Positions 2,076-50,080 of a stretch of DNA of 64,000 bases are shown piece after piece. The translations under genes were made by a program, and so were the position numbers. Numbering within the stretch: position 1 is the stretch's first letter; every line of letters starts with the position of its first letter. The stretch spans positions 1-64,000 of the forward strand of contig JACIXC010000016.1 of NCBI GenBank assembly GCA_014360655.1, written 5' to 3'. The notes below the pieces were generated by a model that had not been told where the DNA came from, did no database searches, and was given only the letters and a program-made list of their open reading frames with translations. Source of the stretch: Actinomycetota bacterium (GTDB lineage: Bacteria; Actinomycetota; Geothermincolia; Geothermincolales; RBG-13-55-18).

Positions 2076-3506
2076 ATGGCCATGATACGCAACGGCGCCG
2101 AATACCGCGAGAGCCTCAAGTCCATGAAACCCAACATCTACATGGGCGGGGAGATCCTTGGACGCGACAACCTTCCTGGGACGGAGATCCTGGAGCTCAC
2201 CTGCGAGCTGGCCCACAACAAGGACCTGCAGCACCTGACCACCGCCAAGTCCCACCTCACCGGGGAGACCATCAACAGGTTTTGTCACATCCACCAGAGC
2301 CAGGAAGACCTGCTCATAAAGCAGGAGATGACCAGGGTGGCGTCCCGCATGGTAGGGGGCTGTATCGCCCGCTGCATGGGCATCGACGCCATGAACGCCC
2401 TCTCGGTGATCACCTACCAGTGCGACCAGGTCCACGGTACCGAGTACCACCAGCGCTGGCTGGAGTACCTCAAGTACTGGCAGGAGAACGACATCGTGGG
2501 CTGCTGCGCGCAGTCCGACGTCAAGGGCCACCGCAAGCGCCGCCCCCACGAGCAGACCGACCCCGATCTTTACCTGCGGGTGGTGGAGAAGAAGAAGGAT
2601 GGAATCGTGGTGCGGGGCGCCAAGGCCCACAACTCCTTCGCTCCCCTGGCCCACGAGATAATCGCCATCCCCACCCGTTTCCTGACACCGGAGGAAGGAC
2701 CCTGGGCGGTGGCCATCGCCGTCCCGGGAGACCATCCCGGCGTGAAGCTGGTCTGCCGCGGCGCCCGTTACCGGGACCGCGTCCCCTCCGTGGCCTCGCC
2801 GCTTTCCGGCAAGGGGGAGATCGAGTCCCTCACCATCTTCGACGACGTCTTCGTGCCCTGGGAGAGGGTCTTCCTCTGCGGGGAGACGGAGTTCGGCGGC
2901 CAGCTCGCCCTGCTCTTCAGCCTCTACCACCGCCATTCCTACACCGGGTGTAAGCCGGCCATGTCCGACGTGATCATGGGATCCACCGCCCTGGTTGCGG
3001 AATACAACGGCATCGAGAGGGAAGGCCACATAAGGCATGCCCTGGCGGAGCTCATATGCGTGGCCGAGCTGGTGTACGGGTGCGGCATCGCCGCGGCGGT
3101 GAAGTCGAGCAAAGCTCCCTCCGGCACCCAGATACCGGACGTCGTCTTCTGCAACGTGGCCCGCAAGCACGCCGGCGTGAACCTCTACCACGAGTACGAC
3201 ATCCTGGCGGAGGTGGCGGGCGGGCTCCCGGCCACCCTGCCCTACAGCGAGGAGTTCGAAAGCCCCGAGGTGGGGGAGCTGGTTAAGAAATACCTGGCGC
3301 GCAAGGACGGGGTGAGCCCGGAGAACATGTACAAGTGCTTCGCCTGGATAAGCGACCTTTCCTGCTCCTCCATGGCCGGCGTCATGCAGTACGCCGGGGT
3401 GCACGGCGGCGGTTCCCCCATCATGGAAGATATTGCCATTCTGGGCACCTACGACATCGAGGAGAAGAAGAACATCGCCAAGTTCCTGGCCGGCATACAG
3501 GATTAA
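2076..3506 (+). CDS. 4-hydroxybutyryl-CoA dehydratase / vinylacetyl-CoA isomerase-like (HpaB superfamily)
   Basis: A 476-residue protein of the 4-hydroxyphenylacetate 3-hydroxylase (HpaB) superfamily. All four ligands of the [4Fe-4S] cluster of Clostridium 4-hydroxybutyryl-CoA dehydratase (known as Cys99, Cys103, His292, Cys299) have counterparts: Cys96 and Cys100 in GGCIARC, and His285 and Cys292 in YHRHSYTGC with the correct spacing of 7. This favours the oxygen-sensitive FAD/[4Fe-4S] dehydratase branch over the aerobic monooxygenases, which lack these ligands. In that branch the enzyme converts 4-hydroxybutyryl-CoA to crotonyl-CoA. A GGGAGGGG ribosome site sits just before ATG 2076. No CoA transferase or 4-hydroxybutyrate dehydrogenase lies beside it, so the pathway cannot be fixed and a related substrate is possible. 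Confidence 0.82.
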   Translation: MAMIRNGAEYRESLKSMKPNIYMGGEILGRDNLPGTEILELTCELAHNKDLQHLTTAKSHLTGETINRFCHIHQSQEDLLIKQEMTRVASRMVGGCIARCMGIDAMNALSVITYQCDQVHGTEYHQRWLEYLKYWQENDIVGCCAQSDVKGHRKRRPHEQTDPDLYLRVVEKKKDGIVVRGAKAHNSFAPLAHEIIAIPTRFLTPEEGPWAVAIAVPGDHPGVKLVCRGARYRDRVPSVASPLSGKGEIESLTIFDDVFVPWERVFLCGETEFGGQLALLFSLYHRHSYTGCKPAMSDVIMGSTALVAEYNGIEREGHIRHALAELICVAELVYGCGIAAAVKSSKAPSGTQIPDVVFCNVARKHAGVNLYHEYDILAEVAGGLPATLPYSEEFESPEVGELVKKYLARKDGVSPENMYKCFAWISDLSCSSMAGVMQYAGVHGGGSPIMEDIAILGTYDIEEKKNIAKFLAGIQD

Positions 3507-11331: not shown

Positions 11332-13953
11332 ATGGTGGGCGCAGAGATGCCGCAGGTAGCAGATCCCAGGAAAGGAAAGAACCACCGTATCCCTCTCGCC
11401 TTGCTCCTGACGGTTGCGATGCTGGCATTCCCCACAGCCCCGCTCCTGCCCCCCGCGGGTCGCGCGCTTGCCGCCGCGACGGCGGAGGCGGCGAGAGACT
11501 CGGAACTCCCCCACGACCCCCTGGGAAGGTTGCCTTCCACCCCGGAAGAAGCCCACGCACGTCTCCGGGGCCGTGGTTTCGACTGGCCTGGGGTGGATGG
11601 CGGGGAGGGCGCTTTGCGGACGTACGGCGGCATGGCCGCAAGCGACAATGGCGGTGCCGCCAATGACGCAGGTGACGCCAGCGACGGCGAAGATGCCTTC
11701 CACGCGGCGAGCGTGCAGTCCGGGATCTTCGTCTCCCTCCCCTTCGAGACGGTGGAGGGAAAGATAACGCACGCGGGCGGCGGCGTGAGGGTGGAGCGCA
11801 TCCGCGGCTCCGACACCCGGACCATAGACGACACCGCCAACGCGCAGGGATGGTTCTCGGTCGATTTCACCTCCATAGGCCAGGACATCCAGTCCGGGGA
11901 CACGGTCAGGGTCACGGACCTCTCGGATTCGCAGACCGCGACGGTGGACTGCACCCTCACCGCGACCGTGAACGTCTCGGCGGAAACCGTTTCCGGAAGC
12001 GCCGCTTCAGGCAACCGGGTGGACGTGTACCTGAAGACGCCCTCCACCTATTACGGGGACATGCCGCCGGGCGCGGCGCATCGCCAGGTCTCGGCGGGCG
12101 GCGGCGTCTACAGCGCCGCCTTCGCAGGCACCAACATCCGCGACGGAGATGCCGCCTACGTCTACTCCACCGACGCCTCCGGCCATGTGGTGATGGAAAT
12201 CGCCAGGACCGGAAGCACCCTGGTGGTCTATCCCCAGTACGACGAGGTGATGGGGTTCCACCAGCCCGGCGTCTCGGTCACGGTGGCGGTGGGCAGCGAT
12301 TCGCGCACGGTGGGCAGCAGTGCAGCAGGGTTTTTCGACGCCGTTTTCACCACACATGACATCGTTCCCACGGATGTGGTCTCCGCGAACCTGGGCGGCG
12401 CGCACAGCATCACCGTTGCGGATGTTTCCGCCACCGCGGACCCCCTCACCGACCTTGTGCAGGGTAACGCGCCACCCAACCGCCCCATCCGCATAACCCT
12501 TAACACCTACCGGCAGCCTCTCATGGTGGAGACCGCCAGCGGCCCGGACGGCTCCTTCTCCTATGATTTCACTGGGAAATACACCGTCTCGGGCATCGAG
12601 GTGTTCAACGTGGCCTGGTACGACGACGACGGTGACTGCGTGGTCTACGAGTTCCAGACCTACAGCTGGTTCCTGCCCGAGGGTTACACGGGGCGCGGCT
12701 TCGACGAGTGGGTGCTGATCATGAACCCTAGCCAGGATGCAGCCTGGGTGAGGGTGCTTTTCCAGACCCTGGTAGGGCAGGTGGAGGGCCCCCTAATCCA
12801 CGCCATGCCGCTGACCCGCGTCACGGTGCACGTGAACGACTGGGTCCCCGGCCACCACGTCGCGACCATGGTCACCGCCATCGACAGCGGGGAGATCATG
12901 GCCGAGCGCGCCATGTACATCAACGCCCCCTCGGAGGGGAGGTGGGGCTCCCACGACTCCATCGGCATCGTCACCCCCAGCCCGACCTGGTACCTTCCGG
13001 AAGGGGCCACCTATCCCGGCTTCGACGAGTGGGTGGTATTGCAGAACCCCAACGACGCGCAGGTGCTGGTGAAGGTGCAGTTCCTCGCGAAAGGCGGCGT
13101 GGCCAAGGAGCTGTACGTGAGCATCGAGAAGCGCAGCCGCTTCACCATCCACGCCAACGACCACGTCCCCAACGCGGAGTTCGCCACCCGCGTGGAGTGC
13201 CTCACGTCCGTGGGCGGGGAACCCCTGCCAGTCTTCTGCGAGCGCCCCATGTACATAAGCACCAGGGACGGCAGGCGGGGTGCCACCTGCTCTATCGGCT
13301 CGTCCACGCCGGCTCCGGAGTGGTACCTCCCCGAGGGCACCACGCGGCCCGGCTTCGACGAGTGGGTGACGGTGATGAACCCCAACAGCGTGGGCATCAA
13401 CGTGCGGGCGGCCTTCCACACTCCCGCGGGAGTGGCGGGGAGCGTCACTTTCTACATGGTTCCCCATTCCAGGGGGACCGTCCACGTCAACGACCACGTC
13501 CCCAACCAGGACGTAGCGACGATGGTGACGTGCCTGGAAGGGTATGGCATTCTGGCAGAACGGCCCATGTACATAAACACCAGGGACGGCAAACGGGGCG
13601 CCCACGACTCCATAGGCGCCTTTGCCACCGCCGCCCGCTGGTACCTCCCCGAGGGCACCACCCGCCCCGGGTTCGACGAGTGGGTGGTGGTGCAGAACCC
13701 CAATGACGCGCCCGCCCAGGTGAGGGTCACCCTCCTGGGCCCGCGGGGGCCGGTGGCCCAGGCGACCTTCACCATGGGCCCTCGCAGCAGGGCGAGCGTG
13801 CACGCGAACGAGATGGTGGCGAACACGGACGTGTCCGCCCTGGTGGAGTCGGTGGGGGCAGTGCCGGTGGGGATACTGGCCGAGCGCGCCATGTACATGT
13901 GGGCGGCGGACAAGCAGGGCGCGCACTGTTCCATCGGCATCTCCCCCCTCTAG
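11332..13953 (+). CDS. Large exported surface protein with four C-terminal repeats (copy 1)
   Basis: An 873-residue protein with a long N-terminal signal peptide (hydrophobic core PLALLLTVAMLAF, cleavage near ALAAA). It then has a short DPLGRLPSTPEEAH motif, several beta-sandwich-like domains (residues ~120-440) and four repeats of about 105-110 residues. Each repeat opens with W[FY]LPEGxTxxGFDEW, has a central NPN or NPS, a VHVND-type turn and an ERxMYI segment. The four begin near bases 12667, 12991, 13321 and 13639. Its N-terminal region is homologous to the protein at 30,905-33,463, where the same DPLxRLPSTPEEAH motif occurs. No catalytic motif, sortase signal or C-terminal anchor is visible. 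Likely a cell-surface or extracellular matrix protein. Confidence 0.7.
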   Translation: MVGAEMPQVADPRKGKNHRIPLALLLTVAMLAFPTAPLLPPAGRALAAATAEAARDSELPHDPLGRLPSTPEEAHARLRGRGFDWPGVDGGEGALRTYGGMAASDNGGAANDAGDASDGEDAFHAASVQSGIFVSLPFETVEGKITHAGGGVRVERIRGSDTRTIDDTANAQGWFSVDFTSIGQDIQSGDTVRVTDLSDSQTATVDCTLTATVNVSAETVSGSAASGNRVDVYLKTPSTYYGDMPPGAAHRQVSAGGGVYSAAFAGTNIRDGDAAYVYSTDASGHVVMEIARTGSTLVVYPQYDEVMGFHQPGVSVTVAVGSDSRTVGSSAAGFFDAVFTTHDIVPTDVVSANLGGAHSITVADVSATADPLTDLVQGNAPPNRPIRITLNTYRQPLMVETASGPDGSFSYDFTGKYTVSGIEVFNVAWYDDDGDCVVYEFQTYSWFLPEGYTGRGFDEWVLIMNPSQDAAWVRVLFQTLVGQVEGPLIHAMPLTRVTVHVNDWVPGHHVATMVTAIDSGEIMAERAMYINAPSEGRWGSHDSIGIVTPSPTWYLPEGATYPGFDEWVVLQNPNDAQVLVKVQFLAKGGVAKELYVSIEKRSRFTIHANDHVPNAEFATRVECLTSVGGEPLPVFCERPMYISTRDGRRGATCSIGSSTPAPEWYLPEGTTRPGFDEWVTVMNPNSVGINVRAAFHTPAGVAGSVTFYMVPHSRGTVHVNDHVPNQDVATMVTCLEGYGILAERPMYINTRDGKRGAHDSIGAFATAARWYLPEGTTRPGFDEWVVVQNPNDAPAQVRVTLLGPRGPVAQATFTMGPRSRASVHANEMVANTDVSALVESVGAVPVGILAERAMYMWAADKQGAHCSIGISPL

Positions 13954-14107: not shown

Positions 14108-15286
14108 TCAGGCGGGGCGTCGGCCGCGCATGAGGTGATGAGGGATGTGCAGGAGGCCGCGCAGGCGCTCTGGCGGAGTATCGGCGAGGAGGAAGAAGAT
14201 GAGGTTGGGGAGGGAGAAGGAACGCGCGCGGTGGGAGGGAAGGTGGCCGAGCGGGAGGGTGCGCAGGAAGCGCCGCATGAGTGGATAGGAGGGAAGGACG
14301 GACGCGGGGGCGTGGTCGGGGACGCGGCGCGCGCTGTCGAGCTCCCGCAGGTACCATAGGCCCGGCCCCACGTAACTCGCGACCATCCAGTCACGGCAGC
14401 AGCGGACGAGCTCTTCCCAGCTCGGCTGTGATTTCCCAATGATTTCCAGGACATCGCGGAACTTGACGAGGCGCGCGAAGCGGTGGTTCACCGCCAGGTC
14501 GAGCAGGGTGGTGGCCACGAGGTGCTCCGGCCGCAGGGCCCAGACGGGCAAACCGTCAAGGGTTTCGGGGAATGCGTCCCTCCAGAGGTCCGCAGCTCGG
14601 AAGCGCGTGCGCCTTTCGTACTCAGCCGGCCAGTGCATTCCCACGTGCACGTCCAGCTCCACCACGGTCTCGCCGTCCTCCAGGGCGAGGAAATAGACGG
14701 TGTGGGCGGGAGCGGGGACGAAGGACGGCCTTTCCGGCCGGGGGCGGAAACCCATGGACGAGAGGGCGCGGTCGAGGTCCCCCAGGGCCTCCTCCTCCAC
14801 CAGGATGTCGAGGTCCCGGAAACCCCGCGCGCTCTTGCGCTCGTAGTAGCGCGCGGAGAGGTAATAACCCTTGAGGGGGACGACGCGCAGGCCAGCGCAG
14901 GCCAGGGCGGACAGGGTCTTCGCGGCGACGTGATGTATGAGGGTGGCGCGCACCGTCTCGCGCGCATGCGCGGACCTCCATGCCTCCATGACGGGTCGCG
15001 GGAGGGAGAGGTCCACTCCGAGTGACGCGCAGTCCTCGCATACCAGGTGCAAAAGCGGCTCGAGTTCATGGTAGGAGGCGTTCTCTTCCAGCGCCTCCAC
15101 CTCCACCCGGGATATACCGCGGCTTATCTCATGCAGGCTTCCGGCATCGTCCTCGTTCCCGAAGCGGTAGGCGAGCGCCGCGAGCAGAAAGACGTCGCCC
15201 GCGCCGCCGCGCGGAGCGGCTGAACGGCGCGTTCCTCGGGGCGCGGCGGCCCCGTTCCCGGTCATCCAGGCTGGGGACCCCGCCAT
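14108..15286 (-). CDS. NTP_transf_5 nucleotidyltransferase of the RiPP cluster
   Basis: About 392 residues, resembling the uncharacterised nucleotidyltransferase family (Pfam NTP_transf_5, PF14907). This family is found repeatedly beside lasso-peptide and related RiPP genes. The diagnostic LKGYYL ... RGFRDLDILV block carries Lys139 and the Asp158/Asp160 metal-binding pair. The family probably transfers a nucleotide or uses an NTP, but its substrate is not established. ATG 15286 was chosen over the longer 15403 frame because a strong purine-rich site (AGGAGAGGGGGG) precedes it. It is divergent from the next four genes, with the long GC-rich gap 15,287-15,838 between them. Confidence 0.78.
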   Translation of the reverse strand: MAGSPAWMTGNGAAAPRGTRRSAAPRGGAGDVFLLAALAYRFGNEDDAGSLHEISRGISRVEVEALEENASYHELEPLLHLVCEDCASLGVDLSLPRPVMEAWRSAHARETVRATLIHHVAAKTLSALACAGLRVVPLKGYYLSARYYERKSARGFRDLDILVEEEALGDLDRALSSMGFRPRPERPSFVPAPAHTVYFLALEDGETVVELDVHVGMHWPAEYERRTRFRAADLWRDAFPETLDGLPVWALRPEHLVATTLLDLAVNHRFARLVKFRDVLEIIGKSQPSWEELVRCCRDWMVASYVGPGLWYLRELDSARRVPDHAPASVLPSYPLMRRFLRTLPLGHLPSHRARSFSLPNLIFFLLADTPPERLRGLLHIPHHLMRGRRPA

Positions 15287-15669
15287 CGCAAACCCCCCCT
15301 CTCCTCTTCCCGGGATGAGCGCCCGGTCCATGGCGTTATGGTCGGAAAGGAAGAAAACGGGCCGCAAACCTTCCTGTCCTGCCCCCTCTCCCCGTCTGCG
15401 CATGAGTGCCCCCGCGGGCCGGGCCCTCTTGCCGTTCGCCCCCCGGGCCTTTCCTCCGGGCCGGTCGCCGCCCGTTCCGCGTTGTCGCCGCGCCGGTGCC
15501 GGACGCGGAATCGCGCTCCCCCTTCCTCCTCACCCGGCTCCCGTTCCGGGTTCTCACTTCCCCCGCGCTTTCCCGAGGCGGGAGCTCCCGTTCCGGGACT
15601 CTCGGTGCCGTCCCTCCGCGCCGCGGTCCTCCCTTCCGGGGTCCGGGATAAGGGGGATTTCAGGCGCTT

Positions 15670-15832
15670 CCTGTATTCTACTTTCCTACATTCTACAGGT
15701 TGCCCGCTCCCACATGTAACACCGCCTCGCGTTCACCGCACGCCGCGCGGCTGTGCGCGATCAACGCGACTACCGCACGCCGCGCGGCGTTGCGACGGCG
15801 CAAGGCGGACCTGCCGTGACTTGCTATATACT
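15670..15832 (+). promoter_or_regulatory. Putative control region of the RiPP operon
   Basis: Three elements stand in order. An inverted repeat CCTGTA ... TACAGG spans 15670-15699 and encloses two ATTCTAC copies. A 17-bp direct repeat, ACCGCACGCCGCGCGGC, occurs at 15735-15751 and 15772-15788 (spacing 37 bp), each ending in a palindrome. A TATACT -10 box lies at 15827-15832, about 7 nt before ATG 15839, which would make the transcript leaderless. No good -35 is visible, which would fit an activator binding the repeats. The upstream part, 15,287-15,669, is GC-rich with no gene I can support. Confidence 0.45.
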
Positions 15833-15838
15833 GTTGCC

Positions 15839-16273
15839 ATGGAGAGAGGACACCGTTTCATGCATCCCTGGAAGATAAAGGCAGTAAGGCTGGCGGAGGA
15901 GCTCAGGCTGAGCGCGCTCGCTGCCGCGGCTTTGCCGCGGGCGGTCCTTTTCCCGGGGAGGGAGCTGAAGAGGCTGCAATGGCTACCGGTAAGGGCAGGG
16001 AAGGGGAGGGGCGCGGGCGAGGAGACGGTGCTGCGCTGCGCAGGCAGGTGGTTCGCCCTCCTCGACCGCATGCGGCTGCGCACCTCCTGCCTGACCCGTT
16101 CACTGGTGCTCGCGCGCCTGCTGCGCCGCGAGGGGCACGACGCACGCCTGGTCTTCGGCGTGCGCAGCGACAACGGCCGCAGGGAGGGACACTGCTGGGT
16201 CTCCGTCCGGGGCAGGGAGGTCGCCGGGAAGGTCCCTGGCTTCGAGGAGCTGCATTATGACGAGCGAAGGTGA
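15839..16273 (+). CDS. Lasso B2-type leader peptidase (McjB C-terminal, transglutaminase fold)
   Basis: A 144-residue protein matching the stand-alone B2 form of the McjB protease (Transglutaminase_core3). The catalytic Cys84 sits in RTSCLTRSLVLARLL and the catalytic His118 in EGHCWVSV. The Asp usual about 12 residues after His is not evident (Gly130), so the third catalytic residue may be missing or shifted. In lasso pathways this protein cuts the leader from the precursor, guided by the PqqD-like B1 protein. ATG 15839 fits a leaderless transcript; ATG 15860 has a GGAGAGAGGA site and is the alternative. It overlaps the PqqD-like gene by 17 nt. Confidence 0.85.
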   Translation: MERGHRFMHPWKIKAVRLAEELRLSALAAAALPRAVLFPGRELKRLQWLPVRAGKGRGAGEETVLRCAGRWFALLDRMRLRTSCLTRSLVLARLLRREGHDARLVFGVRSDNGRREGHCWVSVRGREVAGKVPGFEELHYDERR

Positions 16274-16574
16274 GCGCCCGGGCGCTGCGCCGGGACCCCG
16301 CGCGAGGCTGCGGCGCGTGGAAGGCATCGCCTGGCGCGTCATAGAAGGAGAGGCGGTGCTGGTCAACGTGCGCAGGGACGAGGTCCTCCACCTCAATCCC
16401 ACCGCATCCTTTCTCTGGTCGGGACTGGACGGCGGCAAGACGCTCGCCGTGATCGCCGCGGAGATGGCCGGGGAGTTCGAGGTCACGGAGGAGGAGGCCC
16501 TCGCCGATATCCTGGAGTTCGCCGGACTTCTCCTGCAGCAAGGGGTGGCCGAACTTGTCGACCTGGGAGAATAG
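16257..16574 (+). CDS. PqqD-family RiPP recognition protein (lasso B1-like)
   Basis: A 105-residue protein with the winged-helix PqqD/RRE fold signature: WRVIEGEAVLVN, then DEVLHLNPTASFLWSGLDGG and a C-terminal helix region (TEEEALADILEFAGLLLQQG). The family binds the leader of RiPP precursors and delivers them to the modifying enzymes. In lasso systems B1 recognises a YxxPx(L) leader motif, and the candidate precursor at 18,795-18,947 carries YEKPRM. The first ~25 residues are a basic, Gly/Pro-rich extension. The gene overlaps its neighbours on both sides (17 and 20 nt), so all are translated from one message. Confidence 0.88.
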   Translation: MTSEGERPGAAPGPRARLRRVEGIAWRVIEGEAVLVNVRRDEVLHLNPTASFLWSGLDGGKTLAVIAAEMAGEFEVTEEEALADILEFAGLLLQQGVAELVDLGE

Positions 16575-17433
16575 CTATCTACTGGCAGGATATTCCATAA
16601 GAATCCGCTCCACGGCCGGTGACCCCACCGCCTTCCTCCCCGAGACCATGCCGCTCTTCCTCCTTCCCGAGGGGACCGGGATGCCCGACGACCTCGTGCT
16701 GCGCCTCGTGAAGGACGAGAGGGCGGAGGGAGACCCCCTGAAGCGCTTCTTCCCGCCCTCCTTCCGCCTGCGTCGTGGCGCGGAAGGGATGCGGTTCGAG
16801 CGGGTCGACGGCCACGGGGGACCCCTGGGGGGCATAGAGCACGACATGCACCGCGCCTTCCTGGGCCTCCCGGACCTGGCGCGCGGCTGGCGCCTGCCCG
16901 AGGAGGAGGAGGCGGTGCGCGAGACGCTGCAGGTCTTCCTCAAGGGCTGCCTACAGTGGCTCCTTCTGCGGGACGGCGGCACGCTGCTGCACGCCGCCGG
17001 GGTGGCACTGCGGGGAAGCGGCCTCGCCTTCGCCGGCCACACCCGTGCGGGCAAGACCACCCTGGCGAGGAACTTCCCCCCCGAGGTGGTGCTGGGCGAC
17101 GACCTGGTGGCGCTGCGGCGCGAGGGGCGGGGATTCACGCTCTACGGCACGCCGTGGCCGGGACGCGAGGGGGGGAAGGTGGCCTACGGGGGCGTGCCGC
17201 TGGCGGCTATCCTGAGCCTGCATCCCGAGCTCCCGCCCGGGCTCCATGCCGTCACTCCCGCCGAGGCGGCGGCCGAGCTCATGGCCAATGCGCCCCGCAC
17301 CGGGGATCCCCTCGAGGAGAGCAAGCTTCTGGAAATTCTTTCAAGTTTGACCACCGGCATTTCGATATTTAGGTTGAGCGTGAGGCTGGGAGAGGACGTG
17401 ATGCGATATCTCGAGGATCTCCTCGCTCCCTGA
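16555..17433 (+). CDS. HPr-kinase-like protein of the RiPP cluster
   Basis: A 292-residue protein with an HprK-type P-loop, GHTRAGKTT at 161-169. The typical LLHAAGV segment precedes it and GDD follows at 181-183, as in HprK/P-type kinases that phosphorylate Ser or an acidic partner. Relatives sit in lasso clusters, where some phosphorylate the C-terminal Ser of the precursor; the candidate precursor here ends in Arg, so another acceptor must be used. The N-terminal ~130 residues are less conserved. TTG 16555 is preceded by AGGGG about 9 nt upstream and overlaps the pqqD-like gene. The 244-nt gap after it (17,434-17,677) is GA-rich and I see no gene there. Confidence 0.8.
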   Translation: MSTWENSYLLAGYSIRIRSTAGDPTAFLPETMPLFLLPEGTGMPDDLVLRLVKDERAEGDPLKRFFPPSFRLRRGAEGMRFERVDGHGGPLGGIEHDMHRAFLGLPDLARGWRLPEEEEAVRETLQVFLKGCLQWLLLRDGGTLLHAAGVALRGSGLAFAGHTRAGKTTLARNFPPEVVLGDDLVALRREGRGFTLYGTPWPGREGGKVAYGGVPLAAILSLHPELPPGLHAVTPAEAAAELMANAPRTGDPLEESKLLEILSSLTTGISIFRLSVRLGEDVMRYLEDLLAP

Positions 17434-17677
17434 AGACGTTTCCCGCGGACCGAGGGTGTGCGATAAAGGCGCGTCGGCGGGGAAGGGCGTCGGCCGGAAG
17501 GCCGGACCCGTGCTGCCGCACGTGGGACCGACGGGACGGCGCCAGGGGCAGGGCGCCAGGGGCAGGGCCCCCCGGGGCGGAGCCTGAAGGAGGGACGGCA
17601 GCAGGGAAGGTGAGCAGCGGACGGGAAAGCATGGGGCGGTAAGAGTAAAGGGACGGGAAAGCAGCGGACGGGAGGCG

Positions 17678-18802
17678 ATGAAAGGTTTGGAAACCCTGGG
17701 CGACATGGACGCCGAGTTTATCGACAGGATCTTCCGGGCGCACGTGCCCTACTCGGGGAGCCTGGAGCTCACCCACCGCTGCAACCTCGCCTGCCGCCAC
17801 TGCTACCAGTTCCCAGCGCGCGACGGCGAGCTTGACGGCGGCGCCTGGAAGGACATCCTGCGTCAGCTCGCGCAATGCGGCTGCCTCTTCCTCTCCTTCA
17901 CGGGAGGGGAGCCCCTGCTGCGGGACGACCTCCTCGCGCTGGTGGCGCATGCGGCCGAGCTGGACTTCGTCGTCACCCTCCAGACCAACGCCACCCTCAT
18001 GACGAGGGAGCACGTGCGCTTCCTGGCGGATATCCCCAATTTTCGCGCCGACGTGAGCCTGTACGGCGACAATCCCGCGACCCACGACGCCTTCACGGGG
18101 GTCGGCGGCTCCTTCGCTTCCACCAGGAGGGCGCTGGAGATGATGCTGGAGGAGGGTATCCCCGTCCTGCTCAAGGTGACCGTCGGCGACTTCAACTTCC
18201 ACGAGCTCGAGGGTATCGCCGCCCTCGCCGACGCCATGGGCGTCAAGGCGGTCTTCTCGGCCCTCATCTTTCCCCGCAACGACCGCGATACCGCCCCCGC
18301 GGCTCTGCGCCTGGACGACTCCCGCCTGGAGGACTTCTTCCGCTTCGAAACCGCGTACATGCTCGACAGGCTGGGGGAGATGCTGGGCACGGAGAGGGAA
18401 GCGCTCACCTACGAGGACCTCGCCGCTTACGCGTCCCGCTGCGTGCTCAACCCCGACGAGGCCAGCGGCGGCAGGCGCAGGTACTGCGGGGGCGCGAGCA
18501 CCGTGTTCGCCGTGAACCCCTACGGTGATGTATATCCTTGTGTCGCTTTCCCCCTTGTGGTAGGTAATCTGCGGGAGGATGATTTCACCTCCCTGTGGAA
18601 GAATTCCCCGTTACTTGACAAGTTGCGCGGGGGCGAGGGGATGTTGCCGCCGCCCTGCGGGGGATGTAAACTGCTCCAGGTCTGCTCGCCCTGCATGGCC
18701 CTCCACTACCTGGAGGAATGGGAGGGTTCCCACGTGGAAGGCGAGAGATGCCGGCATACGCGGGCACTCATGAGAGCGATAGAGGCATTGCGAAGTGGAT
18801 GA
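17678..18802 (+). CDS. Radical SAM/SPASM peptide maturase
   Basis: A 374-residue radical SAM enzyme. The SAM-binding [4Fe-4S] motif is CNLACRHC (Cys35, Cys39, Cys42) and the GGEP motif is at 76-79. The C-terminal SPASM domain has Cys270, Gly283, Cys288, then Cys327, Cys330, Cys336, Cys339 and a final Cys358, matching the pattern that binds two auxiliary clusters. SPASM enzymes of this length modify peptides (thioether, C-C or C-O cross-links, epimerisation), usually with a PqqD-type helper such as the one encoded upstream. A GGGAGG site precedes ATG 17678. The last 8 nt overlap the candidate precursor gene. Which bond it forms cannot be read from sequence. Confidence 0.9.
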   Translation: MKGLETLGDMDAEFIDRIFRAHVPYSGSLELTHRCNLACRHCYQFPARDGELDGGAWKDILRQLAQCGCLFLSFTGGEPLLRDDLLALVAHAAELDFVVTLQTNATLMTREHVRFLADIPNFRADVSLYGDNPATHDAFTGVGGSFASTRRALEMMLEEGIPVLLKVTVGDFNFHELEGIAALADAMGVKAVFSALIFPRNDRDTAPAALRLDDSRLEDFFRFETAYMLDRLGEMLGTEREALTYEDLAAYASRCVLNPDEASGGRRRYCGGASTVFAVNPYGDVYPCVAFPLVVGNLREDDFTSLWKNSPLLDKLRGGEGMLPPPCGGCKLLQVCSPCMALHYLEEWEGSHVEGERCRHTRALMRAIEALRSG

Positions 18803-18947
18803 GCGAACAAAAGCGAGGAAAGAGTACGAAAAACCGCGCATGTCGGTGATGCGCATCAACCGCTTCTTCTTCGGAGGTTGCCAGAACTCCTGGCCCAACT
18901 GCTACACCTTCTACATGTTCATTCCCGGCGCGGCTCGCTGCCGTTGA
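18795..18947 (+). CDS. Candidate RiPP precursor peptide
   Basis: A 50-residue ORF starting at GTG 18795, with an AGAGG site (18781-18785) 9 nt upstream, inside the end of the radical SAM gene. The frame is closed by TAG just upstream, so the start is well bounded. Residues 1-28 look like a leader: charged, with YEKPRM (Tyr11, Pro14, Met16), the YxxPx[LM] motif read by lasso B1 proteins, then FFFGG with Gly27-Gly28. Residues 29-50 look like a core: Cys29, Cys36 and Cys49, a WPN triplet at 33-35, and Tyr37, Phe39, Tyr40 and Phe42. Its size, place and composition are those of a precursor; function is inferred. ATG 18840 is a shorter start but would remove the YxxP motif. Bases 18,948-19,188 hold no further gene. 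Confidence 0.7.
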   Translation: MDERTKARKEYEKPRMSVMRINRFFFGGCQNSWPNCYTFYMFIPGAARCR

Positions 18948-19188
18948 AGCGCGGCGCGGTAGAACCATACAGAAAGCCGGGAAACATACGTTAAGCAGGT
19001 AAAATACCGCCTTTCCGTTCGCCGTCCGTGTGTTCCGTTCACGCCCCGGATGCTGCCGTTTCCCAGATTTTTCGCGACTGGAGAAAAAAACCGTCCGTTA
19101 ATAGAAGCGAGGAGACAAAAACAGCCCGCAAAAGTCCGGTAAGAGAGGAGCAAGAGAAGAAGAAGGACCTGGGACGGGTGAGGAAGAT

Positions 19189-20500
19189 GAAGGGTTACGG
19201 GAAGCACCTGGTGGCGAGCGTGACGGTCGTCGCCCTTTTCGCTTTCTGCGCCCTGGCGATGGGGTTCGCGGGGGCTCCCGTGCAGGAAGTGCAGGGAAAG
19301 AGCTACGGGGATGCTCCGGGTGCGAAGGGCGTTACAGAGGCGCCCCTTCCGGACAAGGTGACCCTGGCGGGTAGGAATGTGGAGGTCGCGGAAGCCGATG
19401 TCGCCGTGGCACCGGCACCGGCGGCGGACGCCGCGTTGACCGCGGCCGCGCGGACGAGGGACACGGCCTCCGCCGTGAAGGGCGAGACGCATGAGGCGCC
19501 GCAGGTCGAGGTCGCCGCGCCCGCCGTGCCCGATGCGCCCAGCGTCCAGGTCAACCCGCCCACCGGGCTGACCGCGGCATTCATGCCGAAAACCCCGCCC
19601 TACGTCCTGCTGGAGTGGAATGCGAACAACCCGAAGAAGGGCCTCAAGGGGTTCATGGTCTACCGCTCGGTGGTGGGGGAGGATGGAGAGGAGCAGATCT
19701 TTGTCCCCGTCGGGGAGACCAAGAAGGATACCTACAACGATAGCCGCATCGAGCCGGGCCTCACCTACCGCTACCGCGTGACGGCGCTCTCCAAGGGCGG
19801 CGAGGAGAGCGAGCCCACGGAGCCGGTGGAGGTCGCGACCTACAAGGACGTGCCGCCCATGGCTCCCGAGGGAGTGCTGGCGGGCACCATGGAAACGGGA
19901 GTGGGGATCGACTGGTCGCCCAACACAGAGCCCTACCTCCTCGGGTACAACGTTTACAGGCGTAACGCCCTGGGCGGCTACGACAGGCTGACCAGAACCC
20001 CCATCACCGCCAATAACTACTACGACAGGACGGGAGTGGCGGGAAGCGTCTACGCGGTGGCCGCGGTCAACGGGTACGGCACCGAGTCGCCGTACGCCGA
20101 GGTGACCGCACAGGGGGTGGCGCCGGTGCGCTACGATGACGGCGACCCCAACTCCACCGTCGAGGGGCTCTGGGTTTACGAAGGCCATCCCAGCGCCTCC
20201 GGCGGCAAGATAAAGGTGGCGGGTAGCAAGGGTGACAGGTTGCACTTCTCCTTCACCGGACGACAGGTGAAGATGATATCCGCGAAGTACTGGACGTGCG
20301 GGGCTGCCAACGTCTACGTCGACGGGAAGCTCGTGGGCACGGTGAACCTCTACAACTACGACCTGGTTTTCGGGAACGTGGTGCTGAACGTGCCCGGCCT
20401 GCCGTACGGAAGGCACGTGCTCACGGTGGAGCTGCTCGGCAGCGGCAACCCGGAGGGGAGCTTCAACTTCGTGAACGTGGACGCCTTCGATGTCTGGTAA
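19189..20500 (+). CDS. Exported fibronectin-type-III protein with C-terminal beta-sandwich
   Basis: About 436 residues from ATG 19189, which has a GTGAGGAAG-type site. A signal peptide (LVASVTVVALFAFCALAMGFAGA) is followed by an Ala/Val-rich linker to about residue 125. Two fibronectin type III-like domains follow (VLLEWNANNPKKGLKGFMVYR..., then GIDWSPNTEPYLLGYNVYRR...). The last ~110 residues form a carbohydrate-binding-module-like beta-sandwich (FTGRQVKMISAKYW ... VYVDGKLVGTVNLY). The same C-terminal domain is in the next protein, so the pair is related. The longer in-frame start at 19028 has no ribosome site. Probably an extracellular adhesion or carbohydrate-binding protein. Confidence 0.7.
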
Positions 20501-20646: not shown

Positions 20647-20957
20647 GCCATTGAAAGAACGATGCGGCGCCGGGCGGGGACAGGCGGGACATGACCGGGC
20701 GCGTGTCCCGGGCAGGACGGAGCCGGTATAATGCAGGCAGGAACGCCTGTGGAGGTCAGGAACGCCCGTGGAGGTGCGGATGCCGTCGCGGGCCCCCCGC
20801 GCGGCGCGGGAGGCACACGAGAAGGGGACGCGTGGCGCGCCGTGGGCAGGAACGGTGCGACGTGCCGGCTCCCGTGTCCCGGAAGCAGGGGCATGGCGGC
20901 CGGGAGCGAGGTGACCCGGAGGGACGCGTTCCGTTTGGGAAGGAGGCTCACGAGGAC

Positions 20958-21935
20958 GTGAGGCGGTTCACGGGAAGGCGCAATCCCGCTCGTGGAGCGG
21001 GTTCCTTGGGTTCCGCGGGCTCCGCGGGTTCCGCGAGGAGATGGGCAGTGACCGTGTCCGTTCTCCTCGGTCTGCTCCTCCTGGCCTCCTTCGCCTTCTA
21101 CCTGGCACGGGTGAGCGGCGTGGACGGCGGCCTTGAGGAGAGCGACGGTGGGGAGGGATTCACCTCATGGGCGAACCCCGACCTTCCGCGGCCGACGAAC
21201 GTGAAGGTGGTGGCGGAGAGGGGGACCACCATCACCTGGGAAGGCCTGGACGACATACGCGTAATCGGCTACAACATCTACCGCTACAAGGGCGCCGGCG
21301 ACACCGGCTCCAGGATAAACGCCGCCATCGTATCGGACACCGTGTACCACGATGACGAGGGCACCATGTTCGACAGCTACGTCGTGGTCCCCGTGGACAC
21401 CATGGGCAGGGAAGGAGGGGCGTCCGCGCCCGTGGCGGCCACCGAGAAGCCGCGGTCCATAGCGACCCTCGACCCCGTGCGGGAGCCGGAAAAGCTCACC
21501 GACCACACCTTCGAGGGCGGTTCGCAGGGGGAGGAGGAGCAATTACCACGGCAATCCCCGCAGTTGCTGGACTGCACCGCCCCCGGCATGGTCTATTCCG
21601 GGGACTGGTACCTGGAGCATTATGACGAGGTGTTCGGGGGCACCCTCATGGTGACGCCCTACGCGGGCGACTACTTCACCTACACCTTCGCGGGAGACGG
21701 CGTGACCGTCATCTCCGCCCGCCACTGGAACTACGGCATCATGGAGGTCTACCTGGACGGGGAACTGCGCGCCCAGGTCGATCTCTACTCGGATACCGTG
21801 CAAACGGGCCAGAGGGTCTTCACCGCCTCCGGCCTGGGCCCGGGCGCTCACACCATCAAGCTGGTCTGCACCGGCCGCAGCAATCCCTCCGCCTACTTCA
21901 CCTTCATCGACCTGGAGGCCCTGGAGGTAGAGTAG
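20958..21935 (+). CDS. Membrane-anchored FnIII/beta-sandwich protein
   Basis: About 325 residues from GTG 20958, which follows AGGAGG and GAGGA. The in-frame extension back to 20691 reads as Arg/Gly-rich low complexity and is probably not translated. A basic, Gly/Ser-rich N-terminus precedes one membrane helix (VTVSVLLGLLLLASFAFYLA). A single fibronectin type III-like domain follows (TITWEGLDDIRVIGYNIYR...). The C-terminal ~110 residues form a beta-sandwich (FAGDGVTVISARHWNYGIMEVYLDGEL) homologous to the end of the preceding protein. It likely displays a binding domain outside the membrane. The gap to the next gene (21,936-22,182) is GC-rich with no gene I can support. Confidence 0.65.
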   Translation: MRRFTGRRNPARGAGSLGSAGSAGSARRWAVTVSVLLGLLLLASFAFYLARVSGVDGGLEESDGGEGFTSWANPDLPRPTNVKVVAERGTTITWEGLDDIRVIGYNIYRYKGAGDTGSRINAAIVSDTVYHDDEGTMFDSYVVVPVDTMGREGGASAPVAATEKPRSIATLDPVREPEKLTDHTFEGGSQGEEEQLPRQSPQLLDCTAPGMVYSGDWYLEHYDEVFGGTLMVTPYAGDYFTYTFAGDGVTVISARHWNYGIMEVYLDGELRAQVDLYSDTVQTGQRVFTASGLGPGAHTIKLVCTGRSNPSAYFTFIDLEALEVE

Positions 21936-24050: not shown

Positions 24051-27000
24051 CTACTCCCCGCGCACCCCGATGCTCACGTGCCCGCCGTCACGGTTCCTCC
24101 AGTACATCACCCGCTCGCATATCACCGGCAGCGAGGAGAGCACGGAAGTGGAGATATCGCTGGACGGCACCACGTCGTTCGCCTTCAGGGTGAAGCGCGA
24201 CCTGGCCGCCACCGGCACGGAGAGGAAGACGGTCTCGCCCTTGGGTTTCATGAAGGTGAAGGAGACAACCGCCCCGGCGGCGTTGGGGTTCTGCACCATG
24301 ATGTACTCCTCGAACCCCCAGGCGGTTGTTCCCTCCGCCAGGTACCAGCGGGTGGAGGGCATGGGGGTGCCGATGGTGTCGTGGCCTCCCCGCGAGGTGG
24401 CCCCGCTCCAGTACATGGGCCGCTCGCAGATGATGGGGACGTTGGAGGAGAGGTGGGCGGAGAGGTCGCTGTTCCCCAGGCCCGGCAGCGAGTCAACGCC
24501 GATGGTCTGGCGCGCATTCCCGGGCACCACCAGGCCGAAGGGCCTTACCGTCCCGTCGGGGAGCATGAACTCCACGTTGACCACCGCCGGCTGGGGATTC
24601 GGGTTCTGCACCGTGATGTACTCCTCGAACCCCCAGGCGGTGGTCCCCTCCGCCAGGTACCAGTCCCGGCTTGCGGAGGGAGTCCCGATGGTCACGTGTC
24701 CCAGGTCCCGTCCGTAGCGGTACATGGCGCGCTCGCAGATCACCGGCGCCTTCGCCTCCACCCTGGTGGAGACGTCGCTCTCCTGCACCAGGGCGTTGAC
24801 GGAGACCGTCTGGCGCGCGTACCCGGCGACGGGCAGGGTGACGGTCTGGGTGATGCCCCCCGGCTTCATGAAGGTGATGATAACGTCGGTCGCGGTGGGG
24901 TTGGGGTTCTGGATGGAGAGCCAGGTCTCGAACCCCCAGGCGGTGGTCCCCTCCGCCAGGAACCAGGTGGGAGAGGGGGCGGCGACGCCGATGGTGTCGT
25001 GTCCCCCGGCGCGGTTGTTCCAGTACATGGCGCGCTCGCATATCACCGGCGCCGTGGCCTCCACCCTGGTGGAGACGTCGCTCTCCGGCACCAGGGCGTT
25101 GACGTTGATGGTGAAGCGTGAGTTGCCGTCGACGGGCACGGAGAGGGATTGCGTGGCGCCCCCCGGCTTCATGAAGGTGACGTTCGCGGTTACCTGGAAG
25201 GGATTGGGATTCTGGACGAGCACCCAGGTCTCGAACCCCCAGGCGGTGGTGCCCTCCGCCAGGTACCATATCCTGGAAAGTGGCGGTACGGTGTTGTTGA
25301 CGCTCACCGTGCGCGAGTCGGAGGCGTTGTTGCCGTTTACGTCGTAGGCGCGCGCCTCCAGGGAGTAACCCGGGGCGTCGGTGTCCTGCCGCGTGTCCCA
25401 GTCCCACCGGTAGGGCGCCGTCGTGTCCTCGGCGCGCTTCACCCCGTTCACCCAGAACTCCACGCGGTCGATGCCGTGGTGGTCGTAGGCGCTCACCTCA
25501 ACCCCCACCGTTCCGGCCAGGACGGAGCCGTCCGCGACGTTGGTGATGGCGCAGGTGGGGGGGACGATGTCGTACCCGAGGAAGACGAAGTGCTCGCCGC
25601 AGGCCGGGCGGGCGTTGCCCGGACCGTCGCCCATGGATGCGCTCACCACCAGGTCCTCGTGGCCCGTGGCGTCGCCGTCCAGGTTGGCGGAGGCGAGGCA
25701 GGCCCCGAAGACGTCCCCGGTCTCCGCCCCGTAGATGATCATCCCCGCCCCGCCGGCCAGGTCCACCTGGGAAGGCCACGGGGAAACCCCGTTGACCAGC
25801 CAGGCCGCCCCGCAACTCTGCCTGCCCGTCCCCTTGCCGAAGCCGGTGCTGCCCACCGCAATGTCCCGCACCGGGTCCGCGTTGAAGTACAGGGCGTCCA
25901 CGCTGTAGCCCGCGCCGGCGTTGTAGTCCGGCCCGTAGATGGTGATGTCCGCCGGGGTGGAGGCGAGGTCCACCACGTGGGTGAGGTCGCCGCCGTAGAC
26001 GACCACCACCTCCCCGCAGCCGCCGCGGCTCTCCCCCGGGCCGTCCGCCCACATGACGCCGAAAAGCAGGTCGTCGAAGCGGTCGTCGTTTATCTTCTTC
26101 AGGGGCTGGCACATGGAGGTGGGGAGGCCGTCCATGGGGCTCGCCCCGTAGATGGTGCAGTCGCTGTTGGAGGCGAGGTCGATGAAGTAGGGGTAGGCGC
26201 CCTTGTTGCGGCCGTAGACGACGTAGGCTTCCCCGCAACCGTCGCGGGCGTCGTCGGGCCCGTCCGCGTCGAAGGCCCCGATGACCATGTCCAGCTTGGT
26301 GTCGCCGTTGAGATCGCCCAGGCTCACCGGGTAGCCGGCCGAGTCCAGGGGTGTTATGCCGTTGATGACCTTGTTGGGCTTGATGGGGTTGTTGTAATCC
26401 CAGGCGGGCCAGGTGTCACGGCCCCACACGATGTAGGCGCGGCCGGTGGCCGCTTCCCCGCAGGTCCAGGCGCGGTTCGCGTCGACGGCGTCCACCGCGT
26501 TCTGGTCCTGCGAGAAGAGGACAAGCTCCTGTGACCAGTTCGCCCCGCCGTCTATGGTCTTGAGGATGGTGCCGCCCTCTCCCACGGCCCAGGCGGCGGT
26601 GGCGCTACCGGCGGCCACCCCGCGCAGGTCGGTGGTGGTGCCGCCGGACTGTGCGGACCAGCCGCTCCCGTCATACTTGAGGATGGTCCCCCCGTCGCCC
26701 ACCGCCCACACGCACGAGGCGGACGCCGCGCTCACCGCGCGCAGGTCATGCGCGGTGGGGCTGGGGTCCACCGGGGACCACGAGCTCCCGTCGTAATGGA
26801 GGATGGTCCCCCCGTCGCCCACCGCCCACACGTCGCTCGCGCTGACGGCGGCGATGCCGTGCAGGTCGGCGGTGGTGCCGCTGGACTGGGCGGACCAAGA
26901 GCTCCCGTCGTGATGGAGGATGGTCCCCCCGTCGCCCACCGCCCACACGTCGCTCGCGCTCACCGCGGCCGCGTCGCGCAGGTCGGCGGTGGTGCCGCTC

Positions 27001-27974
27001 GCCTGGGCCGTCCAGCCCTTGCTGTTGCTGTAGTTCCCGTTGAAGATGATGGTGCCGCCTTCCCCAACCGCCCAGGCGTGGGAGGTGTCGTAGGCGGCCA
27101 CCCCGTGGAGATCCACCTTGAACTGGTGGAAGAGGGTGTCCGCCTGCCAGGAATTGCCATCGTAGCGGTAGATGGTGTCGTATGCGCTGATGTACTTGCC
27201 CACCGCCCAGCCGTGGGTGGCGTCGATCATGGAGAGGTCGTGGATGAAATCCTGGTTGGCCCGCCCCTGCGCCGACCACCCCGCGCCGGATGCCGCGTCG
27301 TAGTGATGCATGCCGCCGTTTCCCAGGTGGGCGCCGAAGAGGGCGTCGTCGAAGCCGTCGCCGTCGATGTCCCCGGCGATGACGCTCATGCCGCACATCT
27401 CGCCGCCGTTGGCGCTCGAGAGGTAGAGGTCGGGGGGCTTGGCGTTGAAGTCCCAGGGGGATTCGTCCTCGAGGTCCGCGCGTCCGAAGACCACCGCCAC
27501 CGCGCCCGCGAACAGGCCTCCCCCGGGGCTGTCCCAGATGGCCCCCATGAGGATGTCGTCGATGCCGTCGCCGTTGAGGTCGCCGCAGGCCACGGAGTTG
27601 CCCAGGAAGCTGCCGTAGTACCCGTTGATGACGACGTCGGCTTCCGTTCCCAGGTCCACCTCCGGGTCCAGGGTGGAGCGCCCGTAATAGACGTAGACCT
27701 TGCCCGTGTAAAAATATGGGAAGTCGTCGCCGCCCTGGTCGTGGCCGATGACGAGGTCAGGCAAACCGTCGTCGTTGACGTCGCCGGTGGCGGTGTCCGC
27801 GAACATGAGGACCTCGCCGGGATCGCCCCCGTAAATGTAGACGTCCTCGTCCCCGTCCGCGACGTCCTTCTGCACGGTTGCTCCCGGGGCGGGCAGGGTG
27901 GTAAGGATGATCAAGGCAAGGGCAAGGGACAGGACGAGCGGCACGCGGCATCTTGACGGCTTCCTTTTCGCCAT
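24051..27974 (-). CDS. Giant surface protein: FG-GAP and YCF48 propellers, Ig-like domain, four C-terminal repeats
   Basis: About 1,307 residues from ATG 27974, with a signal peptide ending near LPAPGA. In order it has integrin-like FG-GAP repeats with calcium-binding DxNxDGxxD loops (GDVNDDGLPDLVIG, GDLNGDGIDDILMG) and about five YCF48/BNR-like blades (VSASDVWAVGDGGTIL). More FG-GAP repeats follow, then an Ig-like domain (ITNVADGSVLAG...YDVNGN). Last come four ~105-residue repeats opening with W[YF]LAEGTTAWGFE. The last block is the same repeat family as in the proteins at 11,332 and 30,905. A TTG at 28028 could add 18 residues. Likely a calcium-binding adhesin or matrix protein; the BY-kinase copy 2 follows it. 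Confidence 0.75.
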   Translation of the reverse strand: MAKRKPSRCRVPLVLSLALALIILTTLPAPGATVQKDVADGDEDVYIYGGDPGEVLMFADTATGDVNDDGLPDLVIGHDQGGDDFPYFYTGKVYVYYGRSTLDPEVDLGTEADVVINGYYGSFLGNSVACGDLNGDGIDDILMGAIWDSPGGGLFAGAVAVVFGRADLEDESPWDFNAKPPDLYLSSANGGEMCGMSVIAGDIDGDGFDDALFGAHLGNGGMHHYDAASGAGWSAQGRANQDFIHDLSMIDATHGWAVGKYISAYDTIYRYDGNSWQADTLFHQFKVDLHGVAAYDTSHAWAVGEGGTIIFNGNYSNSKGWTAQASGTTADLRDAAAVSASDVWAVGDGGTILHHDGSSWSAQSSGTTADLHGIAAVSASDVWAVGDGGTILHYDGSSWSPVDPSPTAHDLRAVSAASASCVWAVGDGGTILKYDGSGWSAQSGGTTTDLRGVAAGSATAAWAVGEGGTILKTIDGGANWSQELVLFSQDQNAVDAVDANRAWTCGEAATGRAYIVWGRDTWPAWDYNNPIKPNKVINGITPLDSAGYPVSLGDLNGDTKLDMVIGAFDADGPDDARDGCGEAYVVYGRNKGAYPYFIDLASNSDCTIYGASPMDGLPTSMCQPLKKINDDRFDDLLFGVMWADGPGESRGGCGEVVVVYGGDLTHVVDLASTPADITIYGPDYNAGAGYSVDALYFNADPVRDIAVGSTGFGKGTGRQSCGAAWLVNGVSPWPSQVDLAGGAGMIIYGAETGDVFGACLASANLDGDATGHEDLVVSASMGDGPGNARPACGEHFVFLGYDIVPPTCAITNVADGSVLAGTVGVEVSAYDHHGIDRVEFWVNGVKRAEDTTAPYRWDWDTRQDTDAPGYSLEARAYDVNGNNASDSRTVSVNNTVPPLSRIWYLAEGTTAWGFETWVLVQNPNPFQVTANVTFMKPGGATQSLSVPVDGNSRFTINVNALVPESDVSTRVEATAPVICERAMYWNNRAGGHDTIGVAAPSPTWFLAEGTTAWGFETWLSIQNPNPTATDVIITFMKPGGITQTVTLPVAGYARQTVSVNALVQESDVSTRVEAKAPVICERAMYRYGRDLGHVTIGTPSASRDWYLAEGTTAWGFEEYITVQNPNPQPAVVNVEFMLPDGTVRPFGLVVPGNARQTIGVDSLPGLGNSDLSAHLSSNVPIICERPMYWSGATSRGGHDTIGTPMPSTRWYLAEGTTAWGFEEYIMVQNPNAAGAVVSFTFMKPKGETVFLSVPVAARSRFTLKANDVVPSSDISTSVLSSLPVICERVMYWRNRDGGHVSIGVRGE

Positions 27975-28192
27975 GAGACGGCCTTTCGTCTCCTTTTCCC
28001 TTCCTTCCCCGAAAGAGCTCTTTTCCAATATTTTTAAGGTCGGTTCTCCCTGGCGTCAAATAAAACAGCGCAGAAAAGCTTTATCAAGGCGGTTCTTCCC
28101 GCCCGGCTCTTCAATTATATATCGGATGGCAACGGTCCCCACATAAGATAGCGTGTGTCAACTACCGACATTAAGACGGCCTCGCGTTCTCC

Positions 28193-49958: not shown

Positions 49959-50080
49959 AGAACCCCTCCTTTCTTTTAAAAGAGGGATTCTTCCTGTCTC
50001 TGTCGTTGTCCTACTGGCTTGGATTGCTATGTACATTTTTATTCCGCCATAACGTGTACATTTTTACACCGCCGTGGACA

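Follow-up and report, generated by a model that had tools for sequence, protein, structure and literature searches.

A conserved gene cluster in Candidatus Geothermincolia

The stretch of 64,000 nucleotides analysed here (positions 1 to 64,000 of contig JACIXC010000016.1, hereafter the window) belongs to a 2.97 Mb genome of 35 contigs from the class Candidatus Geothermincolia (Actinomycetota). Between positions 14108 and 18947 it encodes genes of six kinds: an NTP_transf_5 nucleotidyltransferase, a B2-type protease, a PqqD-type recognition element (RRE) of ribosomally synthesized and post-translationally modified peptides (RiPPs), an HprK-fold kinase, a SPASM radical S-adenosylmethionine (SAM) enzyme, and a 50-amino-acid precursor peptide. 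A row of five genes followed by a candidate precursor had been proposed from the letters and open reading frames (ORFs) of the window (the sequence-only reading), and all six features were confirmed by profile, motif, or structure matches. The genes from B2 to the precursor run on the plus strand as proposed, but the NTP_transf_5 gene is divergent from this operon. The proposed extent also leaves out an FN3 gene at 19187–20500, which is probably part of the system. The locus is almost certainly a RiPP biosynthetic cluster that uses the 50-amino-acid precursor. Its features are given below; the core boundary is taken from the cleavage position of the Linear Polyphosphorylated Peptides (LPP).

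14108–15403, minus strand: NTP_transf_5 nucleotidyltransferase (PF14907, E 1.4e-31)
15839–16273, plus strand: B2-type transglutaminase-fold leader peptidase (NF033537, 56.2 bits against a cut-off of 33)
16257–16574, plus strand: PqqD-family RRE, a B1-like leader-binding protein (PF05402, 61 bits, E 1e-16)
16555–17433, plus strand: HprK/PEPCK-fold kinase (TTG start; invariant motifs and AlphaFold2 fold)
17678–18802, plus strand: radical SAM/SPASM enzyme (PF04055, 1.5e-20; PF13186, 5.8e-10)
18795–18947, plus strand: precursor peptide VDERTKARKEYEKPRMSVMRINRFFFGGCQNSWPNCYTFYMFIPGAARCR (GTG start; overlaps the stop of the radical SAM gene by 8 nt)
18825–18842, plus strand: predicted RRE-binding motif YEKPRM of the leader (Y11, P14, and M16 invariant)
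18873–18944, plus strand: predicted core GGCQNSWPNCYTFYMFIPGAARCR (cut proposed after Phe26)

Relatives of the cluster occur in metagenome-assembled genomes of Candidatus Solincola and Candidatus Geothermincola (Actinomycetota), a group from hot springs and sediments. Of the 31 genomes of the class, 13 have both the radical SAM ortholog and the precursor, and the order B2, PqqD, HprK, radical SAM, precursor is kept in all loci that are not cut by a contig end. The recurrence of the radical SAM gene with its precursor in 13 genomes is far beyond chance. Scores of the radical SAM profile drop cleanly from 272 bits, reached by the weaker of two contig-cut halves, to 193 bits, and thus the ortholog group is limited to the order within the genomes sampled. 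In the window, coding sequences overlap between B2 and PqqD, PqqD and HprK, and radical SAM and precursor. The gap of 244 nt between HprK and the radical SAM gene is GC-rich in the window, whereas in most relatives the two genes overlap or the gap is closed or nearly so; no gene is proposed for this interval (17434–17677), which has two stops in the frame read.

The radical SAM enzyme has a CxxxCxxC motif and seven SPASM cysteines that are invariant among orthologs. It exceeds no NCBIfam cut-off among the profiles listed, and its closest solved proteins are the sactisynthase SkfB (1.7e-30) and PqqE (1.5e-26), with SuiB also among the matches. The genome of the window has one other SPASM-domain match, on a different contig. 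The Geothermincolia enzymes form a single clade (SH-aLRT 99) in a tree built from 69 radical SAM proteins (short search). The PqqD gene is the sole PqqD in the genome, and the nearest solved structure to its product is LppB with bound leader (9X8Z, E 7.8e-10), followed by the lasso protein TfuB1. The HprK-like protein has no Pfam match and reaches just 25 bits with TIGR04355. Nevertheless, across 17 homologs its Walker A motif (GHTRAGKT) and a DD motif vary little if at all, the Walker A Gly/Lys and the Asp-Asp pair being invariant, and its AlphaFold2 model (mean pLDDT 93) has Foldseek matches to PEPCK (6.6e-8) and HprK (1.7e-4). By its modelled structure, the protein belongs to the known HprK/PEPCK fold group.

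The B2 protein carries a Cys84 and a His118 that are invariant in 13 orthologs. Its gene starts at ATG 15839, or at TTG 15821 judging by relatives; in the ORF as called (15338–16273, plus strand), homology begins only at about 15821/15839 and the GC-rich stretch before it is a spurious extension. Likewise, the true start of the NTP_transf_5 gene is probably near 15286 or 15265, with homology from about 15208. Neither upstream extension is conserved, and neither was counted as protein. The NTP_transf_5 gene stands divergent beside B2 in the Solincola-type loci without a contig-end cut; it is incomplete in L018 and absent from the contig of L027. In the two Geothermincola genomes (L025 and L026), none was found near the cluster, and an FN3 gene occupies the divergent position instead.

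The precursor peptide and its cysteine spacing

Each of the 13 genomes with the radical SAM ortholog has a short ORF of 50–54 codons immediately downstream of that gene, so the conservation on which the sequence-only reading had staked its candidate precursor was found throughout. In window numbering, the invariant residues are Y11, P14, M16, V18, I21, R23, F24, F25, C29, C36, Y37, and C49. Position 38 is always Ser or Thr, giving a CY[S/T] motif among three conserved cysteines, and the window has Thr38 where its relatives carry Ser. Tyr37 and Ser/Thr38 are the only hydroxyl positions kept in every precursor. Most cores also contain W33-P34-N35, a candidate for the conserved aromatic-X-X motif that marks three-residue cyclophane peptides (triceptides), although the W, P, and N are each lost in some orthologs. 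The precursor is mostly under purifying selection; among equal-length pairs, most dN values are about 0.02–0.4 and dS values about 0.2–2.4, with dS saturated or undefined in some pairs. A profile of the 13 sequences finds them in their own genomes at E 1e-22 to 1e-32 and gives nothing better than 9e-5 in the rest of 396 Actinomycetota genomes. Matches at E 1e-4 to 1e-2 in seven other genomes were regarded as chance, and most contain internal stops. A match of the precursor to PF00706 (sea anemone toxin; 16.7 bits against a cut-off of 27) was also dismissed as a chance match of a short Cys peptide.

The cluster is made of parts of known kinds, and it comes closest to LPP, the paeninodin lasso peptides, and SynChlorMet. 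LPP are a family with RRE, HprK, and NTP transferase proteins but without a cyclase (Popov et al., 2026; PMC13381572). They share with the window a discrete RRE that binds YxxP leaders, an HprK-like kinase, an NTP transferase, the absence of a macrolactam cyclase, and a polysaccharide setting, and the window RRE is nearest to LppB among solved chains. The motif YEKPRM fits the lasso/LPP leader consensus [Y/W]xxPx[L/V/I/F/A] save for the Met in the final place, and the longer LPP consensus, YxxPxVLxHQxIxFETxxS, is cut after position 12 following the Pro and phosphorylated on Ser3 of the core, at position 15 (PMC13381572). The core of the window precursor is proposed to start after Phe26 because the LPP cut falls 12 residues after the Pro. 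The window precursor keeps YxxP but has Cys instead of Ser at position 15. LPP also differ in having a SpI-type peptidase and an MsbA exporter, whereas the window has B2 and a SPASM enzyme, with no signal-peptidase-like protein identified among the genes of its cluster. The main text of the LPP paper does not contain the words radical, rSAM, or SPASM (PMC13381572).

Among distant loci, the closest to the cluster is L041 (Spartobacteria), which has the order HprK, PqqD, radical SAM, YEKP short ORF, SpI-like signal peptidase, and NTP_transf_5. In 289 genomes reached via its phylum, about ten further cassettes with PqqD, radical SAM, precursor, and HprK were found (Verrucomicrobiota; L081, L082, L085, L086, L091, L093, L095, L099, L100, and L102), several of them beside genes for very large proteins. 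These cassettes have the same four gene kinds, a YxxP leader, and a precursor beside the radical SAM gene (e.g., RRPYEAPELKRVDLALAETLSQGCKLESDSGCVGPPVTAYEGGS). The HprK gene follows the precursor in most of them, no B2 was found, and the radical SAM proteins fall on neighbouring but separate branches, with most Verrucomicrobiota on one branch (SH-aLRT 99). Most of these precursors end in Ser, resembling kinase-modified lasso precursors.

A ScmC search in 395 genomes of the phylum of a Deltaproteobacteria locus identified true SynChlorMet loci above the cut-off (Desulfobacterota). SynChlorMet cassettes (TIGR04248–TIGR04251) resemble the window cluster in their PqqD-like, HprK-like, and SPASM radical SAM proteins, and in some loci an NTPt5 protein. 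Nine of the loci carry a short YxxP ORF whose core consists of Cys repeats about every 10 residues, and the ORFs of this kind beside ScmC (L122–L137) are candidate SynChlorMet precursors. The text of the NCBI SynChlorMet models is not known to name a precursor.

Some of the genes also occur in other arrangements. L077 (G397) has B2 and PqqD genes and three tandem short YxxP ORFs with Cys-containing cores, with no radical SAM gene within the 2.3 kb examined. In L096, a short ORF (2956–3141, minus strand) ending MKKQYRKPKLIAKNQPKGAFVAGCPSQGTSNKSYCVSCYRAN, with a Cys 16 residues after the YxxP Pro, lies beside a 497-amino-acid radical SAM protein of another branch. In L079, from an archaeal genome (Bathyarchaeota, G398), a PqqD-family gene also adjoins one for a radical SAM protein.

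The position of the first Cys after YxxP is shared by the three groups. In all 34 precursors, this Cys lies 15–18 residues after the Pro, close to position 15, at which LPP are phosphorylated. The distant precursors were chosen by eye on YxxP, strand, and adjacency and Cys was not a criterion, so that some selection is possible. The position is 15 in all Geothermincolia, 15–18 in Verrucomicrobiota, and 15–17 in the Desulfobacterota set (ten precursors, of which L140 is below the ScmC cut-off). After removal of similar sequences, 22 of 22 precursors comply, compared with a mean of 2.4 and a maximum of 9 for shuffled tails (20,000 trials).

Proposed biosynthesis and competing explanations

On balance, the cluster is best read as a variant of the peptide systems with RRE, HprK, and NTP transferase, in which a B2 leader peptidase and a Cys crosslink by the radical SAM enzyme would be added. 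The gene set, the precursor with its conservation and distribution, the lack of a nearby cyclase, and the Cys spacing are direct observations; the enzymatic steps are deduced from homology, and the nature of the crosslink, the site of cleavage, and the function of the product are likewise deductions. The PqqD protein would bind the leader at YEKPxM and so present the precursor to the remaining enzymes. The radical SAM enzyme very probably acts on the precursor; it would abstract a hydrogen from the core and form a Cys-derived crosslink, for which a thioether from Cys29 is the likeliest form and one that we favour with some reserve. The SPASM radical SAM enzyme, RRE, and Cys-containing core are gene traits of sactipeptides and ranthipeptides, whose thioethers join a Cys sulfur to an alpha, beta, or gamma carbon. 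Phosphorylation of the peptide by the HprK-fold kinase appears reasonably likely, with LppK and PadeK as precedents for kinase action on precursors, and would fall on a core hydroxyl, Tyr37 and Ser/Thr38 being those kept throughout. The phosphate may then receive a sugar or nucleotide from the NTP transferase, as modelled on PsmN, which was reported to hexosylate (PMC9266682). Finally, B2 would remove the leader, plausibly at RFFF/GGC.

Several points weigh against this interpretation. The argument for a thioether draws on conserved Cys residues and remote similarity, SPASM enzymes are also able to form C–C and C–O bonds, and Trp33-Pro-Asn35 could suit a cyclophane. At the usual place of its third acid (H+12), the window B2 has Gly, and only about half of the relatives have an acidic residue there. 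As the sequence-only reading had remarked, there is no exporter in view: Pfam scans over selected window ORFs found no exporter gene in the cluster. The window precursor also lacks the C-terminal Ser of the Verrucomicrobiota peptides, and all genomes compared are from uncultured organisms. Moreover, LppK does not modify its site when the residue there is changed to Thr or Tyr (PMC13381572), yet the window has Thr38 where its relatives have Ser.

Alternatively, the radical SAM enzyme of the same cluster could make a C–C cyclophane between aromatic and other side chains (e.g., Trp33 to Asn35) and no Cys thioether. SPASM enzymes such as SuiB form C–C bonds, and the core has conserved Phe, Trp, and Tyr residues and commonly W33-P34-N35. 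However, Asn35 is replaced by Y, Q, and L in L022, L024, and L025, and Trp-Pro is lost in L026, whereas Cys29, Cys36, and Cys49 never vary and the positional rule of the three groups concerns Cys. This chemistry is considered unlikely. Somewhat less probable still is an LPP-like pathway in which (poly)phosphorylation by the HprK-fold kinase is the main modification and the radical SAM enzyme either plays an accessory part or has another substrate. The common set of RRE, HprK, and NTP transferase, the polysaccharide setting, and the proximity of the RRE to LppB would fit such a pathway, but the radical SAM gene overlaps the precursor gene in the window, adjoins it in relatives, and is present wherever the precursor is, and a Cys occupies the position of the LPP phospho-Ser.

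The cluster could also be a divergent member of the NCBI-defined SynChlorMet system, with which it shares gene kinds (HprK-like ScmC, PqqD-like ScmD, SPASM enzyme, and NTPt5) and YxxP-Cys precursors. We consider membership very unlikely and rejected it on the curated cut-offs and the tree. The window reaches 33 of 100 bits for ScmD, 111 of 400 for ScmE, and 90 of 400 for ScmF, and ScmC is not among its profile matches. SynChlorMet requires two radical SAM/SPASM proteins while the window cluster has one, its radical SAM proteins branch apart in the tree (SH-aLRT 100), its cores are Cys repeats, and B2 was found in none of the SynChlorMet loci scanned.

The presence of B1 (RRE) and B2 proteins is a trait of lasso peptides, and paeninodin/pseudomycoidin-type lasso clusters further share the HprK-like kinase (PadeK) and NTP transferase (PsmN). 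The sequence-only reading had pointed to the missing asparagine-synthetase-like cyclase, and this extends to every relative, as a PF00733 search in all 31 genomes of the class gave no match beside any cluster. In the genome of the window, an asparagine-synthetase-like homolog on another contig (L069, 7240–9141, minus strand) has an SGGLDS motif but starts with MAGL, without Cys2. It scores 155 bits as an XrtA-type amidotransferase, 143 as AsnB, and 98 of 525 as a lasso cyclase, all under the cut-offs. Similar proteins without the N-terminal Cys occur in several genomes of the class. A lasso peptide with its cyclase encoded elsewhere in the genome is exceedingly improbable, since the L069 homolog scores so low and its like do not follow the cluster, the 13 precursors have no conserved Asp/Glu ring acceptor (core position 7–9) after the leader motif and seven of them, including that of the window, have no Asp/Glu there at all, and the penultimate leader residue is not Thr. 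The cluster also differs from the paeninodin/pseudomycoidin type in having a radical SAM enzyme and no nearby cyclase, and its precursor lacks a C-terminal Ser.

Possible cell-surface role and implications

Two genes downstream of the precursor encode possible partners of the cluster:

19187–20500, plus strand: protein with FN3 and RGI-lyase-type beta domains and an apparent signal peptide (probable partner, by co-occurrence)
20691–21935, plus strand: CE2_N-like protein with a C-terminal domain resembling that of the FN3 protein (possible partner, weaker link)

Of the 13 genomes of the class with the cluster, 12 encode the FN3 protein, compared with none of the 18 without it; this is a strong association and not proof of function, as these genomes are related to one another. 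One of the negative genomes, G026, belongs to the same genus as two positives and has a completeness of 98%. The FN3 gene lies near the cluster in nearly all positives, including L025 and L026, where other synteny is lost. The FN3 protein therefore probably belongs to the system. Wzz/ParA-type proteins flank the cluster on both sides, with polysaccharide genes further out. Because of the nearby exopolysaccharide genes and the co-occurring secreted FN3 protein, an action of the peptide product at the cell surface may be tentatively suggested. The lasso paeninodins and LPP likewise often sit in capsule loci (PMC13381572).

The window also encodes three DUF5719 proteins (11332–13953, 24051–28028, and 30905–33463), the first of which is a direct neighbour of the cluster in almost every Solincola-type relative. 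Downstream of the polysaccharide genes are two integrase/transposase genes (rve, Mu-type; 46419–47318 and 48720–50036).

There is a fair chance that the cluster marks a new RiPP class, as the sequence-only reading had suggested. No report of the exact gene set was found in the open-access papers searched, including those on SynChlorMet, ScmD/ScmE, and radical SAM proteins with HprK, but related YxxP cassettes with RRE, HprK, and radical SAM proteins exist, as do LPP. The combination, the precursors of the three groups, and the Cys rule were likewise not found in the open-access literature searched. More speculatively, and with rather less confidence, the Geothermincolia, Verrucomicrobiota, and SynChlorMet cassettes could be branches of one undescribed RiPP superclass, led by YxxP, in which the first Cys 15–18 residues after the Pro would be modified by the radical SAM enzyme and the peptide phosphorylated and then glycosylated by an HprK-fold kinase and an NTP transferase, giving a radical-crosslinked phospho- or phosphosugar peptide for the cell surface.

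If the main reading is right, radical SAM crosslinking would be joined with HprK-type phosphorylation in a single pathway, a combination not found in the open-access papers searched. Precursors are hereby proposed for SynChlorMet-type cassettes and two relatives, the positional rule points experimenters to one residue, and minimal three-gene constructs are offered for direct expression. The finding also suggests an explanation for lasso-type helper genes in places that have no lasso cyclase.

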